This document shows, piece by piece, positions 27,849-30,317 of a stretch of 32,753 nt of DNA. The stretch's first letter is position 1; the number at the start of each line of letters is the position of its first letter. Source of the DNA: Bacteroidia bacterium (GTDB lineage: Bacteria; Bacteroidota; Bacteroidia; JADZBD01); assembly GCA_020054095.1 (NCBI GenBank), contig JAGVMA010000087.1, positions 1 through 32,753 of the forward strand, given 5' to 3'. The notes below the pieces were generated by a model. That model worked only from the letters and a program-made list of their open reading frames with translations, was not told the origin of the DNA and did not search any database. The translations under genes and the position numbers were made by a program.

Positions 27849-29690
27849 TTATTCTTGAATAATAAATTTTCCTTTTGTAATTAATCCTAGTGCATCAGCT
27901 AATTGGTAAAAATAAATACCCTGGTTTAAATTACCTTTTTCTATTACAATGTTGTTTTGATTAATGTTAGTAATGGTCATCACTTCTTTTCCGTTCATGT
28001 CAAATACTTTCAACTCCGCATTTATGATTTCAACCACATCATCAATCACTAAATTTGCAGTTGTGTTAAAAGGATTAGGATAAAATCCAACATTAAAGCC
28101 GGCAAATCGGCCTTCGGTGGCTGAGTTGGGTGGTGGTCCGCATGGGGCGCATGTTCCGCATGCATATTTTAATGTAGTAACATCGAAACTGTTTACCTGC
28201 GGTAATGTGTGTTGCCTGAACGACTCACCTGTAATAAATACTTCGTCTTTACATAAATAGGTATCGTATCTAATTGCAAGACAATTCTTATAGTCGGCTA
28301 AATCGGCATTAATAATTAAATCTGTACCATAATCATACGAACGCGACCATATTACTGCGCCAGTTGTTCCATTATAGCACCTTGTTGTAATGTTTGTAGA
28401 ATTTTGAGAACTGATAGTTTCAAAAGAAGTGCCTGTTACATACAGCAGACCCGACTGTGGAGAATATTCTATCGCATTAGCAAAATCAACGCCACCCGGC
28501 TCTCCACATGAATTTGATGGGCATGCAGAGCCATCGTAATATTGCGGATTAGTGCCCCAGCAAGTGGCCACTGCACCGGTACTTGCATTTAATGCAGTTA
28601 CCATGTAATCCCAGTTCCAAGGAGTTTGATTTTGCTCAATGTGCCCGCAAGCATAAACAAGTGATATACCACCACCACAATTTCCAACCGAAGTTATATC
28701 AACATATCCTTCATCTTTTCCTGCAAATCCGGTATTATGAACCCACATGAAGTTTCCGTTTGACCCGTTATACTTTACAACTATTCCATTTAATTGTTGT
28801 CCGTTGTTTGATCTTGCTCTACCGGCAATATAAACATCAGCAGCAGGACTAACATTTACAAGTGTAAGTGCATATGACCTGTCTTCCAAGTTATAAGGAT
28901 TATATGTTTGGGTCCACAAAAGTGTGCCTGTTGAACTTAATTTGCCCGTTACAAGTTTACTATCACTTGATGTATCGTATTTCCAACCCGTAAAATACAC
29001 AGCACCACTTGCATCATTTTTTATATCCGTTACCGTGCAAGAGGGATTTGTGCCATTGTACAAACCAGTAAAAGTATAAGTCCACGCCCAACCTGTGCCT
29101 GTTGGGTCGTCTTTTAACACAATACCATGCCATAATGTTGTGCCTTGATCATATGTTCTTCCACCGACATATACATTAGTTGAGTTTACAACACTTAATG
29201 AATATCCTCCCACTTCTAAAATACCTGAGTTATCTGGATATCGCTTGGGGTAGTTTACTGCAATTGTACCAGTGCTTGCATTGTATTTTATTAATGCTAT
29301 GTCGCGGGCAGTTACAGAATTATCAATTGTTCCAGCCACCCATAAATTACCCTGCCCATCAAGCGCAATTGCATTTCCTTTTTCAAAGCTGCTTGAACTT
29401 GAAACCACCCAGCCATTTGTAATTGTTTGCCATTGCAATACCCCAGCTACGTTATATTTTGCTGTGTATATTTTTTTGTCTTGCACAGGTGTAGCATTTG
29501 ATTGATCTATACCCCCTGTTACATATACATCGCCTGTGGCTTGGTCAACGGTTACTGCTCTGCCATAGTCCAATGCATTGGTATAGTTCGGGCTATCGTA
29601 CTGTTTTGCCCAAATTAAATTTTGGGCATTTGTTTTAGTAATTGCGAATGCGGCAATTAATGCTAAATAAATAATTTTTTGTTTTTTCAT
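27849..29690 (-). CDS. Secreted SBBP/delta-60-like repeat protein with T9SS type A sorting domain
   Basis: The 613-aa protein has a signal peptide ending near TNAQ. The body consists of repeated words of the type GDVYVTGGIDQ, GNLWVAGTIDN, TNVYVGGRTYDQG, GAVYFTGWKYD, ADVYIAGRARS and LLYVTGTSFET, each followed by a KYN-containing strand, typical of SBBP/propeller-like surface proteins. A Cys-rich stretch (KYACGTCAPCGPP) precedes the type A domain from about residue 538: VGFYPNPFNTTANLVI, LKVFDMNGKEVMTI, LNQGIYFYQL and a final GKFIIQE. Its upstream region is shared with the divergent XRE regulator and is rich in palindromes. Function beyond surface export is unknown. Confidence 0.87.
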   Translation of the reverse strand: MKKQKIIYLALIAAFAITKTNAQNLIWAKQYDSPNYTNALDYGRAVTVDQATGDVYVTGGIDQSNATPVQDKKIYTAKYNVAGVLQWQTITNGWVVSSSSSFEKGNAIALDGQGNLWVAGTIDNSVTARDIALIKYNASTGTIAVNYPKRYPDNSGILEVGGYSLSVVNSTNVYVGGRTYDQGTTLWHGIVLKDDPTGTGWAWTYTFTGLYNGTNPSCTVTDIKNDASGAVYFTGWKYDTSSDSKLVTGKLSSTGTLLWTQTYNPYNLEDRSYALTLVNVSPAADVYIAGRARSNNGQQLNGIVVKYNGSNGNFMWVHNTGFAGKDEGYVDITSVGNCGGGISLVYACGHIEQNQTPWNWDYMVTALNASTGAVATCWGTNPQYYDGSACPSNSCGEPGGVDFANAIEYSPQSGLLYVTGTSFETISSQNSTNITTRCYNGTTGAVIWSRSYDYGTDLIINADLADYKNCLAIRYDTYLCKDEVFITGESFRQHTLPQVNSFDVTTLKYACGTCAPCGPPPNSATEGRFAGFNVGFYPNPFNTTANLVIDDVVEIINAELKVFDMNGKEVMTITNINQNNIVIEKGNLNQGIYFYQLADALGLITKGKFIIQE

Positions 29691-29713
29691 TTTGTTCGTT
29701 TTTTAGTTTAACC

Positions 29714-29733
29714 TATTTCTGTATACAGAAATA
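29714..29733. promoter_or_regulatory. Perfect 20-bp palindrome in the divergent promoter region
   Basis: TATTTCTGTATACAGAAATA is identical to its reverse complement. It lies 24 bp upstream of the T9SS cargo ATG and is directly followed by a second, shorter inverted repeat, ACCTG-tatttc-CAGGT (29733-29748). Position and symmetry suggest a dimeric repressor site; binding is inferred. Confidence 0.6.
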
Positions 29734-29783
29734 CCTGTATTTCCAGGTGTTTCATGTTAAAACGAATATACTAAAAAATCGAA

Positions 29784-29803
29784 TTGGCTACAATAATAGC
29801 CAA
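29784..29803. promoter_or_regulatory. Inverted repeat upstream of the XRE gene
   Basis: TTGGCTA-caataa-TAGCCAA has perfect 7-bp arms and lies about 31 bp before the regulator start, where a promoter is expected. It is a possible operator. Confidence 0.5.
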
Positions 29804-29816
29804 CAAAATTTAAAAA

Positions 29817-29836
29817 ACATGAGAATTTTCTCATGT
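29817..29836. promoter_or_regulatory. Palindrome overlapping the XRE start codon
   Basis: ACATGAGAA-tt-TTCTCATGT has perfect 9-bp arms. Its right arm contains the first two bases of the GTG start (29835-29837), so a bound dimer would block transcription or translation of the regulator. This is the expected place for an autoregulatory site. Confidence 0.6.
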
Positions 29837-30059
29837 GAAACAAAAGCGAAATTCCCAAGCATTAAAAAAATTCGGTAAACGAGTTCGTGCATTTCGCTTA
29901 CAACAAGATATTTCACAACGCCAATTTGCATTTGATGCTGATATTGAGTTATCGCTTTTAAAGCGTATTGAAAAAGGAGAAGTTAACACCGGAATAACAA
30001 CTGTTTTTTCAATAGCACATGCGCTTGATATTCCCCCCAAAGATTTATTAGATTTTTAA
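29835..30059 (+). CDS. Small XRE-family helix-turn-helix regulator
   Basis: The 74-aa protein is almost entirely one HTH_3/Cro-C1 domain. A basic N-terminus (KQKRNSQALKKFGKRVRAFR) leads to the helix-turn-helix at about residues 27-47 (SQRQFAFDADIELSLLKRIE), then GEVNTGITTVFSIAHALDIP and the terminal PKDLLDF. Size and layout resemble controller (C) proteins of restriction systems, but no restriction or methylase gene is nearby. GTG 29835 is the only usable start; a stop lies five codons upstream. A perfect palindrome covers the start codon, which suggests autorepression. The gene diverges from a T9SS cargo gene and is followed by a repeat array. The target is inferred. Confidence 0.85.
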   Translation: MKQKRNSQALKKFGKRVRAFRLQQDISQRQFAFDADIELSLLKRIEKGEVNTGITTVFSIAHALDIPPKDLLDF

Positions 30060-30128: not shown

Positions 30129-30317
30129 GATATGCGCACACGAGAGTCTTATATGCGCACACGAGAGTCTTATGTGCGCACACGAGAGTCTTATATGCGC
30201 ACACGAGAGTCTTATGTGCGCACACGAGAGTCTTATGTGCGCACACGAGAGTCTTATGTGCGCACACGAGAGTCTTATATGCGCACACGAGGGTTTCATG
30301 TGCGCACATAAAGGGTT
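30129..30317. repeat. Nine-copy 21-bp tandem array with two dyads per unit
   Basis: Units start at 30129 and then every 21 bp to 30297. Consensus is TATRTGCGCACACGAG followed by AGTCT. The fourth base R is A,A,G,A,G,G,G,A,G in order; units 8 and 9 are worn at the end. In G units TGTGCGCACA (bases 3-12) is a perfect palindrome, and AGAGTCT (bases 15-21) is a second dyad. Their centres are 10.5 bp apart, and so is the next unit's dyad, so all dyads face one side of the helix. There are no spacers, so it is not a CRISPR array. It may be a protein-binding array or a minisatellite. Confidence 0.9.

Follow-up and report, generated by a model that had tools for sequence, protein, structure and literature searches.

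Between a gene for a small XRE-type regulator and a divergent gene for a secreted protein, a contig of a Bacteroidia bacterium (JAGVMA010000087.1) carries four unlike palindromes, which raises the question of what would bind each of them and how the two genes would respond. We addressed it in the window (the whole 32,753-nt stretch of DNA analyzed), in the rest of its genome, and in other genomes of the class. The region is predicted to be the common control region of a module of one regulator and one cargo protein. In the reading that we favor, and consider fairly probable, the regulator controls its own gene and the neighboring surface protein through a single palindrome between two promoters.

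The palindromes and the genes they separate

The features of the region are collected in Table 1. Both genes are what a sequence-only reading had taken them to be. The best solved match of the regulator was C.AhdI, and it matched C.BclI with E 2e-6. In a profile scan of the window proteins, the divergent product matched Por_Secre_tail over residues 537–611 (E 3.3e-10) and TIGR04183 (E 5.4e-12), as befits cargo of the type IX secretion system (T9SS), and its N terminus, MKKQKIIYLALIAAFAITKTNAQ, is signal-peptide-like as judged by eye.

Table 1. Positions of genes, predicted promoter element, and palindromes in the window
Feature	Position	Strand	Remarks
Divergent secreted protein, T9SS type A sorting domain	27849..29690	-	613 aa
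Palindrome 1, 20 bp, perfect, TATTTCTGTATACAGAAATA	29714-29733	.	shared genome-wide site, predicted to lie in the cargo 5′ leader
Palindrome 2, ACCTG-N6-CAGGT	29733-29748	.	absent in the C79 paralog
Predicted cargo -7 box TATATTCG	29763..29770	-	24-31 from operator centre; predicted transcription start near 29758
Palindrome 3, TTGGCTA-N6-TAGCCAA, predicted regulator operator	29784-29803	.	centre 29793.5, 41.5 bp before GTG
Palindrome 4, ACATGAGAA-tt-TTCTCATGT	29817-29836	.	over predicted regulator promoter and first two GTG bases
C-protein-like XRE regulator	29835..30059	+	GTG start, 74 aa; HTH_3 E 1.4e-9; C.AhdI E 1.8e-8

All four palindromes claimed in that reading are present. The fourth, said to cover the regulator's start codon, does overlap it but stops short of its last base. 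None of 2,000 dinucleotide shuffles reached the summed score of the top four palindromes; taken singly, the rank-1 score was matched in 15 of 2,000 shuffles and those of ranks 2, 3, and 4 in none, palindrome 2, which shares one base with palindrome 1, being scored within a larger imperfect palindrome. The region gave no match in Rfam, and a scan for σ70-type promoters was uninformative on it. Just 3′ of the regulator, at 30133–30308 of the window, lies a 21-nt tandem array of 8.4 copies (TGCGCACACGAGAGTCTTATG), with related arrays at C65:5355–5509 and C68:67423.

The four palindromes are three different things and one that is probably incidental. The closest paralog, on contig C79, helps to sort them. 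There, palindrome 4 is identical at 20/20 positions, and the arms of palindrome 3 agree at 13/14 and its spacer at 5/6; the regulator ORF is identical at 170/222 nucleotides and at 41/74 third codon positions. The earlier suggestion that arms be weighed against spacers thus found palindrome 4 and the operator arms kept, but arms and spacers conserved to a similar extent. Palindrome 2 has no counterpart in this paralog, and because it is not conserved we regard it as probably incidental. The one other genome of the same family among those searched yielded neither a regulator match nor a palindrome.

A probable cognate operator at a fixed position

With the regulator as query, the genome of the window (3.17 Mb in 87 contigs) gave 21 hits at E ≤1e-3, a threshold at which hits were obtained in 30 of 59 other genomes searched. 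Tightening the threshold to E ≤1e-7 leaves 14 here, compared with at most 4 in any of 197 other genomes. We compared the upstream sequences of 79 loci, comprising 18 from this genome (C20, a broken hit, and C70 and C15, without upstream sequence, were not counted) and 61 from elsewhere in the class, where hits with a stop or too little upstream sequence were left out. A palindrome centered at −49 to −36 from the regulator start was found in 44 of the 79 (3.2 expected), that is, in 12/18 of the loci in this genome and 32/61 of the others, whereas equally wide intervals further upstream held one in only 2 to 7 loci of 79, even with the shared palindrome included. Under a stricter score, the −50 to −30 bins held 25 palindromes against 0.65 expected. 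The remaining 35 loci showed no palindrome at −41 at the threshold used.

Although its position is constant (center about 42 bp before the start codon), the operator sequence differs from locus to locus, and it varies with the protein. Among 40 distinct operators (42 aligned, less 2 duplicates), half-site similarity correlated with recognition-helix identity (r 0.465; reached in 0/2,000 permutations), and still did so once the remainder of the protein was controlled for (partial r 0.445; 0/2,000). Given the helix, that remainder added little (r 0.085; 207/2,000). Like helices accompany like operators even across genomes, as in C16 of this genome and L100 of G081 (IDISTLSRLERG and IDLSTLSRLERG, with AATATAGG..TAGTCCTAT in both) and in C18 of this genome and L114 of G016 (GGTAATATATTACC in both). 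The only other copy of the window's operator, with one mismatch, stands on C79 beside the paralog, which is 84% identical. Matches at two mismatches were not above control (15 forward in all vs. 24).

Palindrome 3 is, on these grounds, the predicted operator of the regulator itself, and the covariation of helix and operator leads us to infer that the regulator binds it as a dimer. The local autoregulatory operator proposed earlier is thus supported by fixed position as well as by covariation. The arrangement of regulator and operator, with a different palindrome each time, appears to recur in the same genome and in related bacteria.

Promoter geometry and the sign of control

When the 40 operators were aligned on their centers, the cargo side carried TA..TT[TC]G starting at 24–27 in 19 (about 0.2 expected). 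On the regulator side, TTT[CGT]G occurred at 33–34 in 16 of the 40 (about 0.8 expected) and the full TA..TTTG box in none. The −7 box occupies −12 to −5 (PMC9723704; PMC6847099), a position from which cargo transcription would begin about 36 bp from the operator center, with the operator over the cargo −33 region. The regulator promoter shows no −33 motif, an absence that says little because the motif is weak in F. johnsoniae anyway (PMC6847099).

A start codon stands at aligned residue 1 in 27 loci, and in every one of them it fell at +41 to +45 from the operator center, although operators had been picked within −49 to −36 of the aligned start and the codon could have fallen anywhere in that range. 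Fifteen of the 27 have a TTT(n)G box upstream, with its G 3–5 bases before the start codon in 14 of these 15. Since this spacing matches a G at −5 of the transcript (PMC6847099), the regulator mRNA is probably leaderless, with the operator at about −42. Leaderless mRNAs account for only 5.5% in F. psychrophilum (PMC9723704); C-protein operons are commonly leaderless (PMC4824078). The window conforms to the family in operator distance and in the position of its cargo box but, unlike other loci, has no good TTT(n)G box before its GTG, palindrome 4 taking its place.

The proposed mechanism follows this geometry. A dimer of the regulator on palindrome 3 would cover the −33 region of the TAnnTT(T/C)G promoter, about 35.5 bp before the predicted cargo start, and would repress the surface gene. 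Repression of the cargo is the safer inference and we hold it to be likely, because the operator overlaps the cargo promoter. On the other side, the same dimer would sit about 42 bp before a leaderless promoter, a position suited to self-activation in the manner of λ CI. The fixed spacing and the weakness of the regulator's own promoter suggest such activation, which we rate at slightly short of an even chance and as roughly balanced against plain autorepression. True bistability, advanced in the earlier reading, is plausible insofar as the geometry fits a toggle like that of λ CI, but the SQE patch is SQR in the window protein, and we consider bistability doubtful. These three gradings are matters of judgment.

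Plain negative autoregulation, in which the dimer blocks both promoters and holds regulator and cargo steadily low with no bistability, is a serious alternative, if one we hold to be somewhat improbable. It would agree with an operator that overlaps the −33 regions of both predicted promoters, and with the loss of the C-protein SQE contact from the window protein. This patch, which in C proteins contacts σ region 4, matters in C.Csp231I (PMC4824078); its residue 29 is R in the window, E in 31 of the 79 regulators, and E or D in 5 of the 18 of this genome. Repression alone, however, should tolerate shifts in spacing that are not seen in any of the 27 loci, and it would act on a regulator promoter that, lacking a full box in all 40 cases, looks weak already.

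Palindromes 1 and 4 as predicted further sites

Apart from the module proposed for palindrome 3, palindrome 1 would be a separate genome-wide site, through which a DNA-binding factor acts on many secreted genes. The genome of the window has 24 such sites at ≤3 mismatches, 14 of them perfect (control, 0), a number that favors the earlier suggestion of another factor for the unlike palindromes in the case of palindrome 1. No site at ≤1 mismatch was found in 394 other genomes of the class, and none in viral contigs; the GTDB collection, which may leave out the window's own genome, gave a single perfect match, from a Lachnospira MAG. Of the 14 perfect copies, seven are flanked on one side by a regulator of this family and on the other by the leader of a gene whose product is, or once was, secreted (C12, C16, C61, C65, C67, C73, and C79). 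An eighth copy, on C84, has the same promoter and leader with no regulator, and in all eight loci TATATTCG stands 29–41 bp away on the promoter side. A one-mismatch copy (L070, C17:24910) lies 239 bp before a Cas9-like ORF recognized by eye.

An RNA hairpin, serving as leader element or terminator rather than as protein site, would explain why palindrome 1 follows an identical box, within the predicted 5′ leader, in those eight loci. However, the 17 mismatches among the 24 sites all avoid the central six bases (chance 0.002), which would form the loop; 9 of 10 variant sites break a stem pair on the printed strand and the tenth does so on the other; and upstream of the copies on C66, C42, and C68 this box is missing. 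We consider the hairpin improbable and rejected it on account of the invariant center. Palindrome 1 is best read as the predicted site of one genome-wide DNA-binding factor.

Palindrome 4 would be a second local operator, over the regulator promoter. It has no other copy in this genome at ≤3 mismatches beyond that on C79. A second palindrome centered at −22 to 0 occurs in 7 of the 18 loci of this genome and 5 of the 61 others (5.0 expected in all), so that it looks like a habit of this genome. These second palindromes differ from locus to locus, except in the pair C67/C79. In L039 and L010, homologous regulator modules found in two different families, a long imperfect palindrome around TGCAAATTAGCCCTTACACAA is shared before the regulator start.

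A mosaic family of loci and its partner genes

Of 18 copies of the regulator examined in this genome, 14 are divergent from another gene, 1 is on the same strand as its neighbor, and 3 had no neighbor found. The loci on C16 and C79 show how such copies relate. One block of 956 nt, 92% identical, extends as far as the regulator's final codons; a second, of 143 nt and 94% identical, begins at the −7 box, includes palindrome 1, and reaches into the signal peptide. Across the regulator and operator between these conserved flanks, no DNA similarity was detected. Regulator and operator therefore seem to diversify, or to be swapped, together while the flanks are kept, as would be required for paralogous switches to stay insulated from one another.

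Could palindrome 1 itself be the site of a recombination that shuffles regulator and cargo modules, giving phase variation? The cassettes are mosaic and many copies of palindrome 1 lie near contig ends, but the conserved block of C16 and C79 runs straight through it, mosaic boundaries falling elsewhere, and the C12 boundary just past it looks like loss of a signal peptide. As the block boundaries do not fit, we dropped this explanation, which we consider very improbable. The best flanking inverted pair at the locus is only 76% complementary, and the phase-like behavior suggested earlier has no support as far as DNA rearrangement is concerned. In several cassettes the cargo gene looks broken, with split frames, truncation, or a missing signal peptide (L081 on C61, L084 on C79, L092 on C65, and L046 on C12), possibly through assembly error.

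The partner is not always T9SS cargo, an idea that we rejected: outside this genome, the sorting domain is present in 15 of 47 divergent partners, made up of 8/40 complete partners and 7/7 that ran past the locus edge, and so are long genes, and were re-fetched whole (L102 and repeated partners left out). The corresponding figure for downstream neighbors, counting Por_Secre_tail only among the matches listed, is 4 of 50 (Fisher p 0.004). By a crude score, the N terminus is hydrophobic in 45 of 64 divergent partners from this and other genomes, compared with 81 of 194 ORFs taken as background. Four distant partners are SBBP β-propeller cargo proteins. Three partners in this genome are LytTR DNA-binding proteins (L082, L043, and L045, on C82, C44, and C72), one of them just below the cut-off, so the module extends beyond surface proteins.

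A family of ∼164-aa proteins (MPFNKINTTLTGAQ...) has six copies in this genome (L084:151–690, L037:197–715, C73:4687–5112, C17:24284, C45:1169, and C28:71476), three of which adjoin such regulators. It also occurs in 6 of 59 other genomes, and the copy scanned had no Pfam match.

Taken furthest, these observations would make the genome an array of some 15–20 mutually orthogonal CI-like toggles. Each would turn a single surface or secreted protein on or off and be kept from cross-talk by its own diversified regulator/operator pair set between conserved flanks, and part of the array would answer to palindrome 1 as a shared master site. We put this forward as a speculation, more probably wrong than right by a wide measure. 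If true, it would mean that a surface repertoire is diversified by transcriptional switches instead of DNA rearrangement. The findings provide a helix-to-operator code that can be read across a large family of very small regulators in Bacteroidota, and they predict the targets and start sites of these regulators.

Comparison with known systems

In a literature search with subscription journals mostly outside its reach, no description of pairs of such a regulator and T9SS cargo was found. The region offers a testable case of circuitry of the C-protein or CI type outside restriction-modification (R-M) systems and phages, applied to secreted surface proteins, about the local control of which little is known. 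With the C proteins of R-M systems (C.AhdI, C.PvuII, and C.Csp231I) the regulator shares size, sequence similarity, and a predicted palindromic operator in its own promoter; a leaderless gene is predicted from the spacing of box and start codon in the family, the window's own box being poor. It differs from them in having a divergent surface protein in place of R-M genes, in having one operator at −42 and a second palindrome of different sequence where C proteins have paired similar OL and OR, and in not keeping the SQE patch. That it is itself the C protein of an R-M system, leftover or active, is extremely unlikely: its closest solved match is C.AhdI, but no restriction or methylase gene was found among the window proteins scanned, and in two other loci, L131 and L151, where the size and start of the ORFs point to MunI-type genes beside the regulator, the −41 palindrome is missing.

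λ CI, bound at OR2, activates PRM and represses PR, sitting at −42 for its own gene. The proposed module would resemble it in having one dimer site between divergent promoters, at −42 for the regulator's own gene and over the −35/−33 region of the other. It is unlike λ CI in that the protein has 74 aa and no cleavage domain, the promoters are of the Bacteroidota type, and activation is roughly an even chance.

The invertible promoters of Bacteroides capsule and surface genes, as far as the available accounts describe them, offer a likeness of another kind, in that numerous parallel loci for surface proteins could be switched on or off. Unlike those invertible promoters, each of the loci described here would be controlled through a cognate regulator of its own.
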